Of a DNA stretch of 32,625 nucleotides, positions 22,424-32,381 are shown in pieces (position 1 is the first letter of the stretch; every line of letters begins with the position of its first letter). Origin of the DNA: Myxococcaceae bacterium (GTDB taxonomy: Bacteria > Myxococcota > Myxococcia > Myxococcales > Myxococcaceae); NCBI GenBank assembly GCA_019686135.1, contig JADGHL010000051.1:1-32625 (forward strand). Direction: 5' to 3'. The position numbers and the translations under genes are program-made. Below the pieces are notes generated by a model. The model made no database searches, had not been told where the DNA came from, and was given only the letters and a program-made list of their open reading frames with translations.

Positions 22424-23062
22424 TCAGCGCGGTTCGTCGCCCCTGCGCACAGGCAGCGCACCACCGGCGCGCGACAGGTCCCCGGGTGTGTTGATGCTGA
22501 CCAGCGACGCGGCCCCGGGCTCTCTGGCACACAGCGCGGACACGGGCACTGCGCACCCCTGAACCCTGCGGAGCACCTGCTGGAACGAGGGGTTCTCCGA
22601 AAGCGCATCGCCGAGCGGGCGAGCGAGCGCGCGTGCGTACAGCCCGGGCATCGGCTCGAGGCGGCCCTCGCGCTCGAAGCAGACCCACAGGGGTGCCGCA
22701 TCGCGCCGGCACGCATCCCGGAGAAGCTCCACCGCGGCCACGGAGACGAACGGCATGTCGCAGGCGACCAGCAGCACCCGGTCGGTGCGCGCGTGGACGA
22801 GCGCCGTGTAGAGGCCGCCCGGCGCGCCGTGCCCCGGCTGTTCGTCCGGAACGGCCCGGAGCCCGAAGCGCGCGTAGGGCGACGGATCGTCTGTCACCAG
22901 CAGCACGTCCTCGGTGATGGGCCCGAGCGCGAGGAGAAGGCGTTCGAGGATGGGCACTCCGCCGACTTCGATCAATCCCTTGGCCACGCCCCCCAGACGC
23001 GTCCCGCGCCCGCCGGCCAGGACCGCGAGTGTCACCCCGTCGGTGCTGCCCGACGCTTTCAC
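22424..23062 (-). CDS. mobA: Molybdenum cofactor guanylyltransferase
   Basis: This encodes 212 aa. It attaches GMP from GTP to molybdopterin to give the guanine dinucleotide cofactor used by DMSO-reductase-family enzymes. The nucleotide-binding signature LAGGRGTRLGGVAKGLIEVGG is present, followed by PGHGAPGGLYTAL, the metal motif LVACDMPFVS and late SINTPGDL. It is cytoplasmic. It is divergent from the moeA-mobB gene with a 38 bp gap, so a shared promoter region must be very compact. The extra C-terminal tail is short and basic. Confidence 0.92.
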   Translation of the reverse strand: MKASGSTDGVTLAVLAGGRGTRLGGVAKGLIEVGGVPILERLLLALGPITEDVLLVTDDPSPYARFGLRAVPDEQPGHGAPGGLYTALVHARTDRVLLVACDMPFVSVAAVELLRDACRRDAAPLWVCFEREGRLEPMPGLYARALARPLGDALSENPSFQQVLRRVQGCAVPVSALCAREPGAASLVSINTPGDLSRAGGALPVRRGDEPR

Positions 23063-23100
23063 TTCCGCCGCTCCATGCCTCCTTCATACTCCCGCCGCCC

Positions 23101-24789
23101 ATGGCGCTGATGCCTCTGGAAGAAGCGGTGCAGGCCGCGCTTACGATCGCCCGCCCCCTACCGGCGATCGCCGTGCCCGTCGCGGAGGCGGAGGGCTTCG
23201 TGGCCGAACCGGTGCGCGCGCCGCGGGACGTCCCCGCCTGCGACAACTCGGCGATGGACGGCTACGCGGTCCGCGCGAAGGACACCGTCGGCGCCACGCG
23301 CGATCGGCCGGCGCGCCTGAAAATCGTCGAGACCCTCTTCGCGGGTCAGGCGCCCAGGTGCGCGCTGGGTCCCGGCGAGGCGGCGCGGATCTTCACCGGC
23401 GCCCCCATCCCCGAGGGCGCCGACGCGGTGGTGCGCCAGGAGGCGACCCGCCCTTTTGGCGCGGAGGTGGAGATCGGCGTCGAAGCCACCGTGGGAGAGC
23501 ACATCCGCCGCCGCGGCGAGGAGATCGCCTGCGGCGCGGTGGTGTTCCCGGCAGGCCAGCGGATCGACGCGTACGTCGCCGGCGTGCTCGCCACGCTCGG
23601 CTTCGCCGAGGTGCGGGTGCGACAGCAGCCGCGCGTGGCAATCGTCACCGTCGGCGACGAGCTGGTCGCACCCGGACAGCCGGCGGCACCGCATCAGGTC
23701 TTCGACAGCAACGCCATCCTGCTGGCGCGGTTGTGCCGCGATGCTTCGGCCCGCGTCGTCTCCACCGCGCGCACGAGTGACGACGAGGCCCGGCTCGAAG
23801 GCGCTCTCGCCGACGCGCTGGCCCGGGGCGAGGTGCTCATCACATGTGGCGGCGCGTCCGTGGGCGACCGCGACCGCGTGAAGGCGGCGCTTCGGCGGCT
23901 TGGCGCCGACTTCGTGGTGGATGGCGTGGCGCTCAAGCCCGGCAAGCCGGTGGGCGTGGCCCGGCTGGGCGGGAAGATTGCGCTGGTGCTCCCCGGGAAC
24001 CCGGGCGCGGCGGCCATGGCGTTCGACCGGATCGGCCGCCCGCTGCTCCTCGCCCTTCAGGGCGTGTGCGAGCTGCGGCGCCGGTCGCGCGTGCGGCTCG
24101 ACGCGGACCGCCGCAAACAGCCGGGGCTCACCTACTTCCTGAGCGCGAAGTGGGGCGGCCCCGGCGCCCGGGTGCGGGTGCGGCCGCAGGGCGCGGGGCA
24201 GCTTCTGCAGAACGTGGAGATGGACGGGTGGGTGCGTCTGCCCGCCGGCCGAGGCGAATTCCGCGCCGGCGAGTGGGTGGACTTCGAATGGGCCCACGCG
24301 GGCCGCTTCGTCGCTTTGGAGGGCGGAGCGCCTGCCCGCCACATGCGGCCCATCGCCGTGAGCGTGGTGGGCTGGTCCGGCGCGGGAAAGACGTGCCTCA
24401 TCGAACGGCTGATCCCGGCGCTCGCCGCGCACGGCTGGAAGGTGGCGGCGCTCAAGCACACGCCGGATGCGCACCCGCTCGATCGCCCCGGCAGCGACAC
24501 CGAGCGCTTCGCCCGGGCGGGCGCAACGGCCTGGGCGATCTGGTCCGCGTCCACCTTGCGCCTGTCCGTCGAAACCGGGTGGGAGACCGCGTTGGACCTT
24601 GTGGCGCAAAGCGGTGAGGCGGACCTGATCCTCGTCGAGGGCTGGAAGGACGGACCGTTGCCGAAGATCGAGGTGCGGCGGCCGGGCGGAGGCGAACCGC
24701 TCGAGCGCCCGGAGACCATGGCCGCCATCGGGTGGGACGAGCCGCTGGAGCCTCTCACCCAAAAGCTCATTGCCCTGCTCGAGGAGTGA
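23101..24789 (+). CDS. moeA: MoeA-MobB fusion: molybdopterin molybdotransferase plus MGD-synthesis adaptor GTPase
   Basis: This encodes 562 aa from ATG 23101. Residues about 1-410 are MoeA, which inserts molybdate into adenylated molybdopterin: DVPACDNSAMDGYAV, IFTGAPIPEGADAVV, VTVGDELV, FDSNAILL, CGGASVGDRD, LPGNPGAA. Residues about 418-562 are MobB, with Walker A GWSGAGKT starting at G424, followed by KHTPDAHPLDRPGSDTERFA and LILVEGWKD. MobB is a GTP-binding helper of MobA. The linker is continuous with no internal stop or start signal. It heads a plus-strand operon with fdhD, whose start lies 2 bases after this stop. A longer start at 23029 is possible but would overlap mobA. Confidence 0.93.
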   Translation: MALMPLEEAVQAALTIARPLPAIAVPVAEAEGFVAEPVRAPRDVPACDNSAMDGYAVRAKDTVGATRDRPARLKIVETLFAGQAPRCALGPGEAARIFTGAPIPEGADAVVRQEATRPFGAEVEIGVEATVGEHIRRRGEEIACGAVVFPAGQRIDAYVAGVLATLGFAEVRVRQQPRVAIVTVGDELVAPGQPAAPHQVFDSNAILLARLCRDASARVVSTARTSDDEARLEGALADALARGEVLITCGGASVGDRDRVKAALRRLGADFVVDGVALKPGKPVGVARLGGKIALVLPGNPGAAAMAFDRIGRPLLLALQGVCELRRRSRVRLDADRRKQPGLTYFLSAKWGGPGARVRVRPQGAGQLLQNVEMDGWVRLPAGRGEFRAGEWVDFEWAHAGRFVALEGGAPARHMRPIAVSVVGWSGAGKTCLIERLIPALAAHGWKVAALKHTPDAHPLDRPGSDTERFARAGATAWAIWSASTLRLSVETGWETALDLVAQSGEADLILVEGWKDGPLPKIEVRRPGGGEPLERPETMAAIGWDEPLEPLTQKLIALLEE

Positions 24790-24791
24790 CC

Positions 24792-25667
24792 GTGCCGATC
24801 ATCCCGGACAAGTCGTTGGCGGAACGACACCTGTTGCGGTTCCGCGGCGGGGCGAAGCTCGACGAGGTCGATGACCAGGTCGCGGTGGAGGAACCGCTGG
24901 AGATCCGCATCGCGGGCGATCCCGTCGCGGTGACGCTGCGCACTCCGGGAGACGATCACCGGCTCGCGCTGGGGTTCCTCTTCTGCGAGGGCATCATCCG
25001 CGGCGGCGAAGACGTGGGCACGGTTGCCCATTGCGGCCGCCCCGGCGACGAAGGCTACGGCAACGCCATCGACGTCATCCCCGCGCCGGGCGCGAAGGTC
25101 GAGCTCGAGCGCGTGGAGACCACCCGGAGGGGAACGCTCACGACCGCAGCGTGCGGAGTGTGCGGCCGAAGGACGGTGGACGATCTCTTCGACCGCTGCG
25201 GCGCGCTCCCACCGGGCCCCACCGTTCCCGCCTCGCTCCTGGGCGAATCGACCGCGCGCCTGCGCGACGTGCAGCGCGTGTTCGAACGCACCGGCGGAAC
25301 GCACGCCGCAGCGGTGCTCGACGTGAACGGCGAGCTCCTCCACGGGTTCGAGGACATCGGCCGGCACAACGCCGTGGACAAGGTGGTGGGCGCGTTGGTC
25401 CTGCGCGGGCTGAGCGCCGCGCGCGGCGGCAGCGCGGGCACACCGCCCGAGGGCGAAGCGCCGGCGATCCTCGTGGTGAGCGGGCGGGCGAGCTTCGAGA
25501 TGGTCCAGAAGGCGGCGATGGCGCGGATCCCCATCGTGGCCAGCGTCTCCGCGGCGAGCTCGCTGGCGATCGACCTCGCCCAACGCGTGGGCATCACGCT
25601 CGCCACCTTCGTCCGCGACGGCAGCTTCAACGTGTGCAGCCATCCCGAGCGGGTCGTCGACTCGTAG
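24792..25667 (+). CDS. fdhD: Formate dehydrogenase accessory sulfurtransferase FdhD
   Basis: This encodes 291 aa from GTG 24792, with GAGGAG just upstream inside the end of the previous gene. FdhD passes sulfur from cysteine desulfurase to the molybdenum cofactor and is needed for active formate dehydrogenases. Present are DDHRLALGFLFCEGII, the essential CxxC (C121/C124 in ACGVCGR), RTGGTHAAAVLD-type sequence, HGFEDIGRHNAVDKVVG, and VSGRASFEMVQKAAMARIP. It lies between the cofactor-synthesis fusion and the oxidoreductase, its likely client. An upstream in-frame ATG at 24732 would overlap moeA-mobB by 58 bases. Confidence 0.94.
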   Translation: MPIIPDKSLAERHLLRFRGGAKLDEVDDQVAVEEPLEIRIAGDPVAVTLRTPGDDHRLALGFLFCEGIIRGGEDVGTVAHCGRPGDEGYGNAIDVIPAPGAKVELERVETTRRGTLTTAACGVCGRRTVDDLFDRCGALPPGPTVPASLLGESTARLRDVQRVFERTGGTHAAAVLDVNGELLHGFEDIGRHNAVDKVVGALVLRGLSAARGGSAGTPPEGEAPAILVVSGRASFEMVQKAAMARIPIVASVSAASSLAIDLAQRVGITLATFVRDGSFNVCSHPERVVDS

Positions 25668-25674
25668 GCAGACG

Positions 25675-25700
25675 CCCCTCCCCGCCCGCGCCGGGAGGGG
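25675..25700 (+). promoter_or_regulatory. Stem-loop overlapping the ribosome site of the oxidoreductase gene
   Basis: CCCCTCCC (25675-25682) pairs perfectly with GGGAGGGG (25693-25700) over a 10-base loop. The right arm is the only good Shine-Dalgarno for GTG 25715. In mRNA it could hide the ribosome site, or act as a weak terminator after fdhD. No U-run follows. Confidence 0.45.
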
Positions 25701-25714
25701 GTACGGTCGCCGCC

Positions 25715-27991
25715 GTGTCCATCCTCCGGCGAATCTGGAAGCTCATCCGCACGTACTTTCCCTTCGGGCTGCTCTGGGGCCCCAAGCCCGCCCACTTCCG
25801 TGAGATGCTCAAGGTCGCCTGGGAGAACCGGGACGCGCTCGGCTGGGCCTGGCGCGTCCTCCGCCACGGCGTCTGCGACGGCTGTTCGCTGGGGCCGTAC
25901 GGGCTGCGGGACAACGTGATCTCCGGCACGCACCTGTGCCTCACCCGGCTGAAGCTCCTGCGCCTCAACACCATGCCCGCGCTCCCCGACGGCGCGTGGG
26001 AGGACATCGGCCGGCTGCGGCTGTACTCTAACGAGCAGCTGCACCGCCTGGGCCGGCTGCCGTACCCGTTGCTGTACCGGAAGGGCGACCGAGGCTTCCG
26101 GCGGATCAGCTGGGACGAGGCCGTGAAGAAGGTGGCGGACGCCCTGCGCGCCGCGGATCCGGACCGGGTGGGCTTCTTCGCCTCCAGCCGCGGCATCACC
26201 AACGAGACCTACTACACGTTCCAGAAGCTGGCCCGCATCGCCGGGACCCCGCACGTCGACAGCTGCGCCCGCCTCTGCCACGCCGCCTCCACCAACGCGC
26301 TGAAGGAGACCGTGGGCTACGGCGCCACCACCTGCTCGCTGAGCGACGTCATCGGCGCCGACCTCGTGATGCTGTTCGGCACCGACGTCGCCAACAACCA
26401 GCCGATGATGATGAAGTACCTCCACTACGCGAAGCGGAAGGGCACGCGCGTGGTGGTCATCAACCCGTTCCGCGAGCCCGCGCTGGACCGCTACTGGGTG
26501 CCATCCGTCGTCAGCTCCGCCGTGTTCGGCACGAAGATCTGCGACGACTTCTTCCAGGTCAAAGCCGGCGGGGACGTGTGGTTCTGCCTGGGCGTGATGA
26601 AGGCGCTCAAAGCCATGGACGCCTTCGACCGCACCTTCATCGCCGAACACACCACCGGCTTCGGAGACCTCGAGGCCCAGATGGACGAGGTGGGCTGGGA
26701 CGCGCTCGAAGAGGGCAGCGGCGTCACGCGCGCGGAGATGGAGCGGCTGGCGCAGCAGTACGCGAAGGCGAAGACCGCGGTGCTGATCTGGAGCATGGGC
26801 CTGACCCAGCACCGCTTCGGCGTGGAGAACGTCCGCTCGGTCGTGCTGCTCGGCCTGTGCCGCGGGATGATCGGCCGGCCCCACTGCGGACTGATGCCGA
26901 TCCGCGGCCACTCCGGCGTGCAGGGCACCGCCGAGTGCGGCGCGGACGCGGACAAGCTCCCGGGCGCAGTGGACATCACGCCGGAGGACGTGGCGAAGCT
27001 GGAGGCCCACTGGGGACACCCTATCCCGGCGCGGCGCGGCCTGAAGGCGGCGCACCTGCTCGACCGGGCGCTGGAGAGCGGGCTGGATGTCCTCTACACG
27101 CTCGGCGGCAACTACCTCGACACGCTGCCCGAGCCCGGCGCCGCCACCCGCGCGCTCGCCAACGTCCGGCTGCGCGTCCACCAGGACATCCTCATCAACA
27201 CCTCCGCGCTGGTGGAGCCCGCGATGGAGGGCGGCGAGGTGCTGCTGCTCCCCGCACAGACCCGCTACGAACAGCGCGGCGGCGGCACCTCCACCTCCAC
27301 CGAACGCCGCATCCGCTTCACCCCCGAGCTGCCCGGCCACCGGATCGGCGAGGCGCTCGCGGAGTGGGAGATCCCGGTGCGGATCGGCCGCGCGCTCCGT
27401 CCGGACCGCCCCGACCTCTTCGCCTTCGACGAAGCCAGGGACGTGCGCCGCGAGATGGCGAAGGTGATGCCGCTGTACGCGGGCATCGAGACGCTCGAGC
27501 GCGAAGGCCAGTGGGTCCAGTGGGGCGGCCCGCATCTCGGCGCCGGCGGCATCTTCAAGAACCTCCCCGACGGGCGCGCGCGCTTCCGCCGGCTCGAGCT
27601 GCCGCGCGTGGAGATCCCCCCGGGGATGTTCTTTCTCGCCTCGCGGCGCGGCAAACAGTTCAACTCCATCACCTGGGGGAAGCGCGATCTCATCACCGGC
27701 GCGCCGTCGCGGCAAGCCGTGTTCTTCTCCCGCGAGGACGCGCAGCGCCTGGGCCTGCGCGAGGGGATGCGGGTGCGGCTTCGGAGCGAGACTGGCACCT
27801 TCGACGGCGTGGTGCAGCTTGCGGACCTCAAGCCGGGGCACCTGCAGGCCTTCTGGCCCGAGTGCAACCCGCTCATCGCCCACAGGTACGACCCCATCTC
27901 CGGGGAGCCCGACTACAACGCCTTCGTCACGGTGGAGGCGCTCGACGCCGCGACCACCGCCGAAGCGGCCCGGAGCGCTCAGGCGGCGTGA
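25715..27991 (+). CDS. Formate-dehydrogenase-like molybdopterin oxidoreductase (FdhF/YdeP-type alpha subunit)
   Basis: This encodes 758 aa from GTG 25715, 47 bp after fdhD. The cysteines C54, C57 and C75 (CDGC...HLC) would bind an Fe-S cluster; the fourth ligand of a standard 4Fe-4S site is not obvious. SCARLCHAAS lines up with the catalytic loop of formate dehydrogenase H, placing C188 where that enzyme has selenocysteine. MGLTQHRFGVENVRSV, GLMPIRGHSGVQG, TLGGNYLDTLPEP, and the C-terminal molybdopterin-dinucleotide domain (GLREGMRVRLRSETGTF) follow. There is no Tat signal, so it is likely cytoplasmic. No Fe-S beta subunit or cytochrome is adjacent, so its electron partner is unknown. The fdhD context supports formate-dehydrogenase-type chemistry, but YdeP-like enzymes have unclear substrates. 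Confidence 0.88.
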   Translation: MSILRRIWKLIRTYFPFGLLWGPKPAHFREMLKVAWENRDALGWAWRVLRHGVCDGCSLGPYGLRDNVISGTHLCLTRLKLLRLNTMPALPDGAWEDIGRLRLYSNEQLHRLGRLPYPLLYRKGDRGFRRISWDEAVKKVADALRAADPDRVGFFASSRGITNETYYTFQKLARIAGTPHVDSCARLCHAASTNALKETVGYGATTCSLSDVIGADLVMLFGTDVANNQPMMMKYLHYAKRKGTRVVVINPFREPALDRYWVPSVVSSAVFGTKICDDFFQVKAGGDVWFCLGVMKALKAMDAFDRTFIAEHTTGFGDLEAQMDEVGWDALEEGSGVTRAEMERLAQQYAKAKTAVLIWSMGLTQHRFGVENVRSVVLLGLCRGMIGRPHCGLMPIRGHSGVQGTAECGADADKLPGAVDITPEDVAKLEAHWGHPIPARRGLKAAHLLDRALESGLDVLYTLGGNYLDTLPEPGAATRALANVRLRVHQDILINTSALVEPAMEGGEVLLLPAQTRYEQRGGGTSTSTERRIRFTPELPGHRIGEALAEWEIPVRIGRALRPDRPDLFAFDEARDVRREMAKVMPLYAGIETLEREGQWVQWGGPHLGAGGIFKNLPDGRARFRRLELPRVEIPPGMFFLASRRGKQFNSITWGKRDLITGAPSRQAVFFSREDAQRLGLREGMRVRLRSETGTFDGVVQLADLKPGHLQAFWPECNPLIAHRYDPISGEPDYNAFVTVEALDAATTAEAARSAQAA

Positions 27992-28121
27992 GCGGAAAGG
28001 TACGCACACAGACGGCTCACGGGGAGGGGGATCTGTCGGGTCGGCGAGGAATTCCGAAATCGGTTAGTGTGACCTCCCGCATCGCCGCAGTCCGAGTGCG
28101 GCACCGGTTTCGAGAATCAAC

Positions 28122-28934
28122 ATGGAACAGTTCGATCCCCGTCAGGTGAAGCACCGCGATGCGCAGGAGCTCGCGCAGGGCTATTCGAAGGGCATCCGAC
28201 GGTTCGAGATCGCCTGCATCGCGCTGTTCGCGGTGGCGGTCACCGTTCAGGCGATCCGGATGGTTCGTCCCGCGATGGAGAACCCCTGGCTGATGGTGGC
28301 GGCATTCGCCGCCGGGTACCTGTTCGCGGACTTCGTCTCCGGCTTCGTGCACTGGCTGGCGGACACCTGGGGCAGCGTGGACATGCCCATCATCGGCAAG
28401 GCGCTGTTGCGGCCGTTCCGCGAGCACCACGTCGACCAGAAGGCGATCATCCACCACGACTTCATCGAGACCAACGGCAACAACTGCGGGATCTGCGTAC
28501 CGGCGGGCCTCGCGGCCTTGTTCGTTCCGCTCGAGGACCCGTTGGTGTTCTTCCTCATGGCGTGGCTGCTGTGGTCGATGATCTGGGTGATGGGCACCAA
28601 CCAGTTCCACAAGTGGGCTCATATGGATCGCCCGCCCGGCTGGGTGGCGGTTCTGCAGAAGCTCCACCTGGTGCTGCCGCCCGAGCACCATCAGATCCAC
28701 CACACGCCGCCGTATGCGACGCACTACTGCATCACCACCGGCTGGCTGAACCGGCCGCTGGCGGCGATCCGCTTCTTCCGCGTGCTGGAGTGGATCGTCA
28801 CCACCACCACCGGGGTCATCCCCCGCGCGGACGACCTCGGCGTGCGCGCCGCGCTCGCGGTGCAGGAGGCGGTGGCGGTCAAGCCGGTGGCGGTCCCCGC
28901 AGACGAGCGCAAGGCCCCGGCGCCGCGGCCGTAG
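28122..28934 (+). CDS. carF: CarF/TMEM189-family plasmanylethanolamine desaturase
   Basis: This encodes 270 aa. It is a membrane protein with helices near residues 28-48, 55-75 and 125-160. Many conserved His residues suit a di-iron desaturase: H77 (GFVHWLAD), H102/H103 (FREHHVDQ), H111/H112 (HHDFIETNGNNC), H163/H167 (QFHKWAH), and H189/H190/H193/H194 (PPEHHQIHH). This order is characteristic of the lipid desaturase domain of CarF and animal PEDS1/TMEM189/Kua. These enzymes introduce the vinyl-ether bond of plasmalogens. In Myxococcus xanthus CarF is also needed for singlet-oxygen signalling that switches on carotenoid synthesis. It stands alone, with 130 bp upstream that may hold its own promoter. 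The Ala/Pro-rich tail is unique to this protein. Confidence 0.95.
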   Translation: MEQFDPRQVKHRDAQELAQGYSKGIRRFEIACIALFAVAVTVQAIRMVRPAMENPWLMVAAFAAGYLFADFVSGFVHWLADTWGSVDMPIIGKALLRPFREHHVDQKAIIHHDFIETNGNNCGICVPAGLAALFVPLEDPLVFFLMAWLLWSMIWVMGTNQFHKWAHMDRPPGWVAVLQKLHLVLPPEHHQIHHTPPYATHYCITTGWLNRPLAAIRFFRVLEWIVTTTTGVIPRADDLGVRAALAVQEAVAVKPVAVPADERKAPAPRP

Positions 28935-28944
28935 GGCCTCCGCC

Positions 28945-29763
28945 TCACACCGGCCGGATGTCCACCTGCTCCGCCTGTTCGACCGGGCGGCCGAGGAACC
29001 TTCCCGCCACTTCGAGGAAGCGGTCCGGGGTGTCGGTGACGAAGTACGCGTGTGCCGGCGGGGTGGCCGCCTTCGCCGCGAGCAGCCCGCGCTCCTGCAG
29101 CACCGCCTCCGCCGCCTCGGCCACCGCGGCGGCGGAGTCCACCAGGGTCACGCCGTCTCCCATCACCTCGGCGATGACACCCTGGAGCAGCGGATAGTGG
29201 GTACACCCCAGGACCAGGGTGTCCACGCCCGTGGTGGCGAGCTCCGAGAGGTACTGCCGTGCCACGAGGCGCGGGACCTCGCCCGTCGTCCAGCCCTCCT
29301 CGGCCAGCGGGACGAAGAGCGGACAGGCGCGCGAGGTCACCACCAGGTCCGCCCGCGCCCGTTTGAGCGCGCGCGCGTACGCCCCGGACCGCACCGTGCC
29401 CGGCGTGCCGATCACCCCCACCCGCCCGGTCCGCGTCCTCGCCGCCGCCACCTTCGCGCCGGGTTCGATGACGCCCAGCACCGGGATGGGCAGCTGCTGC
29501 GCGAGCGCCTCGAGACCGACCGCGCTGGCCGTATTGCAGGCGATCACCAGCAGCTTGACGTCGCGCGCGAGCAGAAAACGCGCGTTGGCCAGGGAATAAC
29601 GGGTGACCACCTCCGCGGACTTGGTCCCGTACGGGACCCGCGCGGTGTCGCCCAGGTACACGGTGGCCTCGTGCGGGAGCCGCTCCATCAGGGCGCGCAG
29701 GACGGTGAGCCCGCCCACCCCGGAGTCGAACACGCCGATCGGCCTGCGGTCGTCAGGAAGCAT
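28945..29763 (-). CDS. murI: Glutamate racemase
   Basis: This encodes 272 aa. It interconverts L- and D-glutamate for peptidoglycan. It starts with IGVFDSGVGGLTVLRAL, then YLGDTARVPYGTKS, VIACNTAS with catalytic C76, VGVIGTPGTV, and VLGCTHYPLL with catalytic C187. The two-cysteine active site is intact. ATG 29763 is chosen, with GGGTGG about 4 bases upstream; a GTG at 29781 would add six residues. It is cytoplasmic. It ends 10 bp from the carF stop in convergent orientation. Confidence 0.95.
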   Translation of the reverse strand: MLPDDRRPIGVFDSGVGGLTVLRALMERLPHEATVYLGDTARVPYGTKSAEVVTRYSLANARFLLARDVKLLVIACNTASAVGLEALAQQLPIPVLGVIEPGAKVAAARTRTGRVGVIGTPGTVRSGAYARALKRARADLVVTSRACPLFVPLAEEGWTTGEVPRLVARQYLSELATTGVDTLVLGCTHYPLLQGVIAEVMGDGVTLVDSAAAVAEAAEAVLQERGLLAAKAATPPAHAYFVTDTPDRFLEVAGRFLGRPVEQAEQVDIRPV

Positions 29764-29834
29764 TCGCCACCCACGTAGCACGAAGGATGCCGCCTCGCGA
29801 AAGCAGGCGAACGAGCGCTAGTATCCGTCTGGCT

Positions 29835-29939: not shown

Positions 29940-30980
29940 CTACTGCCGGGTCAACACCACCGTGGGCGCGTTGTTCGGCATCATGAACTGACCGGGGAAG
30001 ATCGTCACCACGAGCGGCGAGCTGGCGCTGGAGAGGTAGACGTCGCCGCTCCCGTCGTTGGTCGGCGCCTGGAGGTAGACCTCGTAGGTGTCTGGGTAGA
30101 GATAGTTGTAGAGCGCGGGCGGCGCATTGCAGTTCTGCGGATCGCCGGCGCCCGGGTAGAGGAGGTTGCCGGCCGAGTCCCGGAAGTTCACGTAGACCGT
30201 GGTCACGTGGGCCTGCGCGCAGCTCTGCTGGATCCCGTCGGAGAGCTGCCAGCCGATCGCGACGCCTCCCACCGACCAGTCCAGCGTGTAGTCCACGCCG
30301 ATCGCCTTGCCGGACAAGAGAGGCAGGTTCGCCGCCTTGCGGTACAGCTCGTTGCCGGTGGCGTCGTAGGCGACGAGCATGATGGTGTGGTTGCCGCCGG
30401 TGAGATACGGGGTGGGCACGCCGTCGGCGGTCTGGCCCTGCGCGCAGGGGAAGTGATCGACCAGCTGGTCATCGACGTACATGTCCACCGTGGCGACCCA
30501 GGCGTCCGCGCACGAGGGGTTGGCAATGGTCGACGACACCAGCGGCGGGTTGAGCGGAGGGAAGAACCACCGCACGTACGCGTAGCTGAGGGGATCGCCC
30601 ACCGGCGCCAGGTCCACGTTCACGGTGAGGTCGCCGTCCACCGTGAAGCGTCCGGAGCTCGAGAAGACCACGTTGTTGCTGTAGTCGATGGCGTCGATGG
30701 TGAAGCTGTACGATCCGCCCGCGAAGTCGAGAAGGTTGATGCCCGGGTAGTTGTCGGCAAGGCACGGGAAGTAGCCGTCGTTCTGCAGCGTCTCACCCGG
30801 GATCTGCAGGTGGATGTTCTTCACATACGGGACGTCCGGACAGTTCTGGCCGGCGAACGTCCAGGTGAAGGTGACGTCTCCGGGGTGGAGAGGAGGAGGA
30901 GGATTTCCGCCGCCACCAACGATGATGCAGCCCGAACCGGTCAAGGCGAGGAGGAATGCGCCGAGGATCTTTGCGTTCAT
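29940..30980 (-). CDS. Hypothetical lipoprotein
   Basis: This encodes 346 aa. The N-terminus MNAKILGAFLLALTGSGC is a lipoprotein signal with lipobox GSGC (C18), followed by a Gly/Pro-rich tether (GGGGNPPPPL). The mature part looks all-beta, with repeated Ig-like phrases such as GGSYSFTIDAIDYSNNVVF and GGNHTIMLVAYDATGNELY, suggesting two to three similar modules. Four or five spaced cysteine pairs may form disulfides (NCPDV, FPCLAD, PSCADAW, FPCAQG, SCAQAHV). No named family is recognised. It is probably displayed in the periplasm or on the outer membrane. It has its own terminator and a divergent upstream region shared with tolQ. Confidence 0.78.
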   Translation of the reverse strand: MNAKILGAFLLALTGSGCIIVGGGGNPPPPLHPGDVTFTWTFAGQNCPDVPYVKNIHLQIPGETLQNDGYFPCLADNYPGINLLDFAGGSYSFTIDAIDYSNNVVFSSSGRFTVDGDLTVNVDLAPVGDPLSYAYVRWFFPPLNPPLVSSTIANPSCADAWVATVDMYVDDQLVDHFPCAQGQTADGVPTPYLTGGNHTIMLVAYDATGNELYRKAANLPLLSGKAIGVDYTLDWSVGGVAIGWQLSDGIQQSCAQAHVTTVYVNFRDSAGNLLYPGAGDPQNCNAPPALYNYLYPDTYEVYLQAPTNDGSGDVYLSSASSPLVVTIFPGQFMMPNNAPTVVLTRQ

Positions 30981-31146: not shown

Positions 31147-31160
31147 ACGCTGAGGTTTGT

Positions 31161-31189
31161 TTGACCCATCCCGGTGGGGGTGCTACTCG
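31161..31189 (+). promoter_or_regulatory. Weak sigma-70-like promoter candidate before tolQ
   Basis: TTGACC (31161-31166) is a good -35 match, and 17 bases later TACTCG (31184-31189) is a poor -10. Transcription from here would start within a few bases of ATG 31199, giving an almost leaderless message. Confidence 0.25.
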
Positions 31190-31198
31190 GGTCGGTCC

Positions 31199-31906
31199 AT
31201 GACGCTGCCCGCCGTTCCGCCTCTTTCGGCGCTCGACGTCGTCGCGGTTCTCCGGAGCGCATCCTTCATCGAACTCGCGGTGCTCTTGCTTCTGGCGTGC
31301 GCGTCGATCGCCTCCTGGGCGCTCATCGCGATGAAGATCGCCCAACTGCGCAAGGCGCGGGCGCAGTCGGTGAGCTTCCTCGACACGTTCTGGAAGGCCT
31401 CGCGGCTCGAGGCCATCTACGCCACCGCGCAGCAGCTCAACGACTCGCCGCTCTCCAAGGTGTTCCGCGCCGGCTACGAGGAGCTCTCCCGGCTCTCCCA
31501 GACCCGCGACCAGAAGGAGGGCGCGATGGCCGAACGGCTGGGCGGGATCGAGAACGTGGAGCGCGCGCTCAACCGCGCCTCCACCGCGGAGATCACCTCG
31601 CTGGAGAGCACCGTCCCGTTCCTGGGCACGGTGGGCGCGGCGGCCCCCTTCGTGGGGCTGTTCGGCACGGTGGTGGGCATCCTCTCCGCCTTCAACGAGA
31701 TCTCCGAACAGGGAAACGCCAGCCTCGCCACGGTGGCGGCGCCGGTAGGCAACGCGCTCTTCGCCACCGCCGCGGGGCTGTTCGCGGCGATCCCGGCCGT
31801 GGTCGCCTACAACCACTTCGTCTCGCGGATCCGCGTCTTCGACACCGAGATGGCCAACTTCTCGGCGGACTTCCTCAACATCGTGAAGCGGCACTTCTTC
31901 AAGTAG
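31199..31906 (+). CDS. tolQ: TolQ/ExbB-type proton channel protein
   Basis: This encodes 235 aa from ATG 31199 (an in-frame TTG at 31157 is possible). It has a first membrane helix near residues 22-42 (ELAVLLLLACASIASWALIA), a cytoplasmic loop of about 45-130, and two helices in the MotA/TolQ/ExbB domain. That domain begins VPFLGTVGAAAPFVGLFGTV, and the second helix includes FATAAGLFAAIPAVVAYNHF. With TolR it forms the proton-driven motor of the Tol-Pal system at the inner membrane. A tolR gene follows 10 bp downstream and a TonB/TolA-like gene after that. The order favours TolQ over ExbB but does not prove it. Confidence 0.9.
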   Translation: MTLPAVPPLSALDVVAVLRSASFIELAVLLLLACASIASWALIAMKIAQLRKARAQSVSFLDTFWKASRLEAIYATAQQLNDSPLSKVFRAGYEELSRLSQTRDQKEGAMAERLGGIENVERALNRASTAEITSLESTVPFLGTVGAAAPFVGLFGTVVGILSAFNEISEQGNASLATVAAPVGNALFATAAGLFAAIPAVVAYNHFVSRIRVFDTEMANFSADFLNIVKRHFFK

Positions 31907-31916
31907 GAGCGCTCGC

Positions 31917-32381
31917 GTGGCCATCGGCGGAGGCAGAGGCGGCGCCACCGGGCGCACCACGATGAGCGAGATCAACGTCACGCCGCTGGTGGACGTGATG
32001 CTGGTGCTGCTCATCATCTTCATGATCACCGCGCCGCTCATCCAGCAGGGCGTGAAGGTGAACCTCCCCGAGGCGCGCGCGGCACCGGTGCAGTCCGAAG
32101 AGAAGAAGATCGTCCTGTCGATCGACGCGTCGAAGAACGTGTTCATCGGCGACGTGCAGGTGCCGCTCGAGGAGCTGGAGGAGAAGCTCCGGACCAACGC
32201 CAAGGCGCAGGCGGACAAGGAGGTCTACCTCCACGCCGATCGCGACATCCCCTATGGCATCGTGGTCGAGGTGATGGCAGCGGCGCAGCGCGCGGGCATC
32301 AGCAACGTGGGAATGATCACCGACCCGATCTCGTCCGGAGCGTCGGGGAAGAAGAACAGGGACAGAAAGAACGGACGCTGA
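31917..32381 (+). CDS. tolR: TolR/ExbD-type protein
   Basis: This encodes 154 aa from GTG 31917. A short Gly-rich cytoplasmic start is followed by one membrane helix with the signature EINVTPLVDVMLVLLIIFMI. D26 is the proton-path aspartate conserved in TolR/ExbD. The periplasmic domain is VNLPEARAAPVQ...IVLSIDASKNVFI...VYLHADRDIPYGIVVEVMAAA. It partners TolQ to harness the proton gradient. The C-terminus is unusually basic (KKNRDRKNGR). It is in an operon with tolQ and the truncated gene downstream. Confidence 0.92.
   Translation: MAIGGGRGGATGRTTMSEINVTPLVDVMLVLLIIFMITAPLIQQGVKVNLPEARAAPVQSEEKKIVLSIDASKNVFIGDVQVPLEELEEKLRTNAKAQADKEVYLHADRDIPYGIVVEVMAAAQRAGISNVGMITDPISSGASGKKNRDRKNGR

Follow-up and report, generated by a model that had tools for sequence, protein, structure and literature searches.

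A carF ortholog encoding a putative CarF/PEDS1-type plasmalogen desaturase in a Myxococcaceae draft genome with candidate ether-lipid genes and no phytoene synthase match

Introduction

The window, i.e. the whole stretch of 32,625 nucleotides of Myxococcaceae DNA that was analysed, carries a gene which is very probably the myxobacterial carF ortholog and which would encode a CarF/PEDS1-type desaturase, its activity being predicted from sequence. That a myxobacterium should possess CarF is no surprise, and it has been published before. The combination of carF and ether-lipid genes without phytoene synthase or an intact carQR pair, on the other hand, looks new, as far as this one draft genome can be read. 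The source genome is probably that of an uncultured member of the Myxococcaceae, a draft of 5.5 Mb in 245 contigs estimated as 97% complete.

Coding status and family assignment

The gene is an open reading frame of 270 codons from an ATG start to a stop codon; its third-position GC content is 0.93, and its codon pattern is unremarkable for a real gene (window GC 69.5%). Other frames run across the same DNA (28017-28724 and 28247-28612 on the minus strand, 28562-29197 on the plus strand), but the PF10520 match and the protein alignments favour the frame that starts at 28122. The Pfam family PF10520 (Lipid_desat) matches the product over its entire profile (1-175 of 175, E 1.1e-59, 201.8 bits versus a cut-off of 26.4), and the sole NCBIfam match is NF045946 (CarF), which covers residues 7-254 with E 1.6e-102 and 342.6 bits; judged by these scores, chance is excluded as the source of the matches. 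The NF045946 score lies below the curated cut-off of 500 bits, while CarF from M. xanthus reaches 558 bits. Human PEDS1, by which M. xanthus CarF can be replaced, scores only 234 bits, so that this cut-off represents a naming threshold rather than a functional one, and it was dropped as an uninformative test of membership.

In pairwise comparison, the window protein is 52% identical over 258 residues to M. xanthus CarF (281 residues), and thus more divergent than the at least 70% observed within the Cystobacterineae (PMC9304148). Its identity to human PEDS1 is 46%; in the human sequence used, those catalytic positions that were checked are spaced as in PMC8960569, given a uniform one-residue offset. 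In a phylogeny whose taxa exclude Leptospira, alphaproteobacterial and plant homologs, the window CarF falls among the CarF proteins of Myxococcota, on a long branch whose position is approximate. A search of a plasmid collection returned no match. The features of the locus are compiled in Table 1.

Table 1. Features of the carF locus, with positions in the window
Feature	Position	Strand	Basis
mobA	22424-23062	-	family matches (Pfam, NCBIfam)
moeA-mobB fusion	23029-24789	+	family matches (Pfam, NCBIfam)
fdhD	24732-25667	+	family matches (Pfam, NCBIfam)
FdhF/YdeP-family molybdopterin oxidoreductase, upstream of carF	25031-27991	+	TIGR01701, 584.7 bits
carF/PEDS1-type plasmanylethanolamine desaturase gene (predicted activity), 270 aa	28122-28934	+	ORF, PF10520, NF045946, identity to M. 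xanthus CarF, AlphaFold2
HxxxD motif: H77 (mouse H96), D81 (mouse D100, essential)	28350-28364	+	alignments
F99 (mouse F118), H102 and H103 (mouse H121, H122)	28416-28430	+	alignments
H112, ninth histidine (mouse H131, CarF H113), separating CarF/PEDS1 from FAD4-type	28455-28457	+	alignments; PMC9131029, PMC8960569
HKWAH motif: H163, H167 (mouse H187, H191)	28608-28622	+	alignments
HHQIHH motif: H190, H193, H194 (mouse H215, H218, H219)	28686-28703	+	alignments
murI, glutamate racemase, convergent neighbour and conserved synteny partner of carF	28945-29781	-	TIGR00067, 249 bits
Hypothetical protein, conserved synteny partner of carF	29940-30980	-	locus comparison
exbB/tolQ (31157-31906) and exbD/tolR (31917-32381), conserved synteny partners of carF	31157-32381	+	PF01618, PF02472

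Catalytic residues and predicted structure

The essential histidines of PEDS1/CarF are, in mouse numbering, residues 96, 121, 122, 187, 191, 215, 218 and 219, and the alignments place their equivalents at H77, H102, H103, H163, H167, H190, H193 and H194 of the window protein; H189, within the HHQIHH motif, is the equivalent of the non-essential mouse H214. D81 and F99 are the counterparts of the essential mouse residues D100 (for its role see PMC8960569) and F118, and F99, H102 and H103 are invariant across an alignment of 38 sequences. With H112 added to these residues, the complete histidine-motif set of the animal enzyme is present in a bacterial gene, just as the initial annotation had stated. 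The nine histidines and the equivalents of D100 and F118 are common to the window CarF and to animal PEDS1/TMEM189. The two differ in that the window protein lacks the insert of human PEDS1 between the ninth-histidine region and the HKWxH motif, and in their setting, a bacterial membrane with an ElbD/AGPS-like pathway in the former and endoplasmic reticulum and peroxisome in the latter. M. xanthus CarF likewise shares the nine essential histidines, the aspartate and the phenylalanine, and differs from the window protein in having RH where the latter, with an extra histidine at position 111, has HH.

The histidine motifs had further been taken as the mark of a vinyl-ether-forming enzyme. Plant FAD4, however, possesses the same set of eight (PMC8960569), and a homolog from Erythrobacter phage vB_EliS-L02, which served as a negative control, keeps all eight and lacks the ninth, so that the eight-histidine motifs alone do not establish a vinyl-ether desaturase. 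Homologs from plants and alphaproteobacteria share the PF10520 fold and the eight histidines with the window CarF; they have no ninth histidine, and they are unable to stand in for CarF (PMC9131029). As judged from the alignments, H112 is the residue discriminating CarF/PEDS1 from FAD4. What could be retained of the earlier argument is the placement in the CarF/PEDS1 family and not with FAD4, for which H112 is the discriminating residue; the eight histidines alone do not suffice as a criterion. An acyl-chain desaturase of the FAD4 type, introducing for example trans-3-16:1 into phosphatidylglycerol instead of acting on an alkyl ether, would belong to the same Pfam family and carry the same eight histidines, but the presence of H112, the synteny with M. 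xanthus carF and the ether-lipid enzymes encoded in the source genome render this assignment extremely improbable. The CarF/PEDS1 type thus remains the preferred assignment.

The AlphaFold2 model of the window CarF, calculated from the 38-sequence alignment, is all-helical and of high confidence, with a mean pLDDT of 91.9 and a pTM of 0.86. Its best fold matches in the PDB were to the yeast di-metal fatty-acid hydroxylase Scs7p and were weak (E 0.25-0.86, Foldseek probability 0.90-0.97), and a PDB sequence search with a profile of 11 CarF sequences returned no relatives. The model and the Scs7p matches fit a di-iron membrane desaturase; they are compatible with such an enzyme and no proof of it.

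Homologs of PF10520 were also encountered in phages (L177:1528-2064 and L178:1474-1932; Erythrobacter phage vB_EliS-L02 and a 595-kb uncultured phage), the ninth histidine being present in the copy of the 595-kb phage and absent from that of the Erythrobacter phage, and a Harvfovirus homolog turned up in the structure search. CarF-type proteins with the ninth histidine were found at eight loci in genomes and metagenome-assembled genomes labelled Woesearchaeota, Planctomycetota, Patescibacteria, Bdellovibrionota and Acidobacteria. These labels exceed the published bacterial range; an archaeal origin of the Woesearchaeota contig is doubtful, as a bacterial-type Tgt adjoins the gene.

Gene neighbourhood and orthology

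The order carF-murI-hypothetical-exbB-exbD is common to the window, M. xanthus, Corallococcus, Archangium and many relatives, the named loci including Hyalangium and other Myxococcaceae and Archangiaceae, and murI lies beside carF in M. xanthus and in most loci of the Myxococcaceae. In a set of 100 loci that matched carF, murI occurred nearby in 58, the hypothetical gene in 48, exbB in 37 and exbD in 36; a number of the remaining loci do not extend far enough to include them. Because this order is shared with M. xanthus, the window gene is, by position, the ortholog of M. xanthus carF and appears to reside in its ancestral place. A record titled Comamonas sp. KCTC 72670 contains the Myxococcus carF locus with full synteny, and is mislabelled or contaminated.

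Pfam scans of the main open reading frames of the window gave no carotenoid and no ether-lipid gene, in agreement with what had been noted at first. The stand-alone position, previously considered worthy of remark, turned out to be the rule: M. xanthus carF was mapped away from the remaining car loci, without linkage to them (PMC8156234), and a survey that covered 27 myxobacteria describes it as a single, isolated gene (Cystobacterineae; PMC9304148). A location distant from carotenoid genes is the normal situation for carF, and the window carF is solitary because carF normally is so in this family; its isolation, as well as its murI and exbBD neighbours, is shared with M. xanthus.

Directly upstream of the window carF lie mobA, a moeA-mobB fusion, fdhD and the gene of the FdhF/YdeP-family oxidoreductase, whose true start is probably near 25.7 kb as judged from the onset of the family match. 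This fdhD/fdhF-carF order occurs in a minority of the Myxococcaceae. A functional tie between carF and FdhF/FdhD was not adopted, as FdhF was nearby in just 3 and FdhD in 8 of these 100 carF-matching loci.

Candidate ether-lipid genes outside the window

One contig of the source genome (C167) encodes a protein with FAR, Sterile, AMP-binding, ACP and acyltransferase domains, a make-up described for ElbD (PMC9131029), directly followed by an NAD-epimerase resembling ElbE. Over the FAR-containing part, this ElbD-type protein shares 70% identity with the one from Myxococcus. PF10520 matches were obtained in 19 of the 23 other genomes sampled from the same family. An ElbD-type protein was found in 24 of 25 PF10520-positive genomes, the source genome included, and also in 11 of 15 PF10520-negative ones; ElbD therefore fails as proof of a linkage to CarF, looking necessary and being unspecific.

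Two AGPS-like FAD enzymes are encoded on contigs C70 and C200. AGPS is their best match in the PDB, with 247 versus 84 bits and 209 versus 141 bits for other FAD oxidases/dehydrogenases, and both carry the HHH motif like Myxococcus AGPS, to which they are about 29% identical. Two further candidates were rejected, one on C40, whose nearest PDB entries are glycolate oxidase/lactate dehydrogenase, and one on C123; both show an EHG motif instead of HHH. On C200 the AGPS-like gene stands in a run (L040:5061-9680) with genes for a partial FAD-binding protein, an Fe-S CCG protein and a YegS/DAGK lipid kinase, possibly an ether-lipid cluster unlike the MXAN_1676 operon of M. xanthus.

It was proposed initially that the desaturase supports aerobic plasmalogen production, a proposal that a genome devoid of ether-lipid synthesis genes, together with cells devoid of plasmalogens, was to refute. 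The genome search yielded ElbD-type, ElbE-like and two AGPS-like genes instead. A pathway to the alkyl-ether substrate of CarF is thus likely to be present in the source genome, and with these genes at hand, its gene content is best read as that of an aerobic plasmalogen producer.

A second PF10520 paralog

The source genome contains a second PF10520 gene (L002:1291-2040, contig C21), just downstream of nuoG/H/I-like genes, of which the nuoI-like one was called by family match and the nuoG- and nuoH-like ones from sequence alone. Together with L015:1324-2052 and L152:4838-5578, it constitutes a class here termed B, seen in three Myxococcaceae genomes (the source genome, G003 and G142), each of which also has a normal carF. 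The class-B copies form a separate clade (SH-aLRT 99). They share about 50% core identity and the nine histidines with the window CarF, but display the motifs FRxHH and HGFxATNG (preceded by R) in place of FREHH and HDFIETNG, and they lack the murI synteny. The NF045946 score of the class-B protein from C21, 238 bits, is similar to that of human PEDS1, and a PEDS1-like activity is conceivable for it. Since single hits were reported for the genomes of PMC9304148, the second copy beside carF represents a small novelty.

With two PF10520 genes in one genome, and with nine histidines and such a score in the class-B protein, one may ask whether the latter is the working desaturase and the window carF non-functional or redundant. 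This is hardly credible: the window CarF possesses every catalytic residue, an intact open reading frame and conserved synteny, whereas class B is rare and each time occurs alongside a normal carF. The window carF is accordingly still regarded as the probable desaturase gene.

The carotenoid and singlet-oxygen response

The search for the carotenoid response covered PF00494 (phytoene/squalene synthase) and carQR. PF00494 gave no match in the 97%-complete source draft of 245 contigs, while the same search was positive in the controls and in 29 of 39 other genomes sampled. Two CarF-bearing relatives (G009, G026) are likewise without a phytoene/squalene synthase match. In the survey of PMC9304148, all CarF-bearing Cystobacterineae had carotenoid genes and carQRS. 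An intact carQ-carR pair was looked for in the source draft and not found, the Myxococcus reference genes having been taken as carQR on the grounds of gene order, size and family.

The sole Pfam DUF1109/NrsF match is an anti-sigma factor paired with an ECF sigma factor on contig C239. This pair was rejected as carQR, as an acyl-CoA desaturase gene adjoins it and the anti-sigma factor matches the Myxococcus CarR-like protein weakly (E 4.5e-7). A better CarR match is a fragment on contig C124 (L174:1445-1875, minus strand) beside a purL-like gene. One reading frame of the fragment covers residues 71-195 of a related CarR-like protein, and the last 18 residues of that protein are matched in another frame. 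About 70 N-terminal residues are missing, and no convincing carQ lies alongside. Faulty assembly might account for the frameshift; the truncated N-terminus and the lack of a sigma gene each point separately to apparent decay, and the fragment is possibly a relic of carQRS. In this context one should mention a recurrent module of the Myxococcaceae, seen at six loci, in which an acyl-CoA desaturase gene is followed by an ECF sigma factor gene and at several loci also by a DUF1109 anti-sigma factor gene, perhaps placing fatty-acid desaturation under membrane-fluidity or oxidative control.

The initial annotation had assigned to the desaturase a part in singlet-oxygen sensing and suggested a genome search for carQRS. 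CarF does act in this way in M. xanthus, at the front end of the response from singlet oxygen via CarQRS to carotenoids (PMC9131029, PMC8156234), and both the DUF1109-type anti-sigma/ECF sigma pair and the carR-like fragment might be taken to indicate such a response in the source organism. The lack of a phytoene synthase homolog in a search that succeeded elsewhere, the acyl-CoA desaturase gene next to the DUF1109 pair, and the truncated, frameshifted state of the fragment argue against it, so that this role is very unlikely here and the assignment was abandoned. Instead, judging from its gene content, the carotenoid light response in which CarF takes part in Myxococcus has apparently been lost from the source genome, which differs from M. 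xanthus both in this respect and in its second PF10520 paralog.

Proposed function and implications

According to the mechanism proposed here, CarF would be an integral-membrane di-iron desaturase, presumably using O2 and electrons. It would remove hydrogens at C1'-C2' of the sn-1 alkyl chain and so convert plasmanyl-phosphatidylethanolamine, the probable substrate, into the lipid with the vinyl-ether (plasmalogen) bond. The alkyl-ether substrate would come from the ElbD-type reductase/ligase/acyltransferase, possibly joined by the AGPS-like proteins, all encoded elsewhere in the genome. The plasmalogens would apparently stand outside a CarQRS-carotenoid response, and their role would most likely lie in the membrane itself or in a signalling output of another kind.

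A more far-reaching scenario can be put forward tentatively, and is rather doubtful at present: the lineage may have lost its carotenoid light response, with crtB gone and carQRS reduced to a fragment, and kept carF in the ancestral place, while a class-B desaturase was acquired or retained. Plasmalogens would then have been selected independently of carotenogenesis, and class B might act on a different ether-lipid substrate. If confirmed in a closed genome, organisms of this kind would allow the roles of bacterial plasmalogens to be studied separately from the triggering of carotenoid synthesis.
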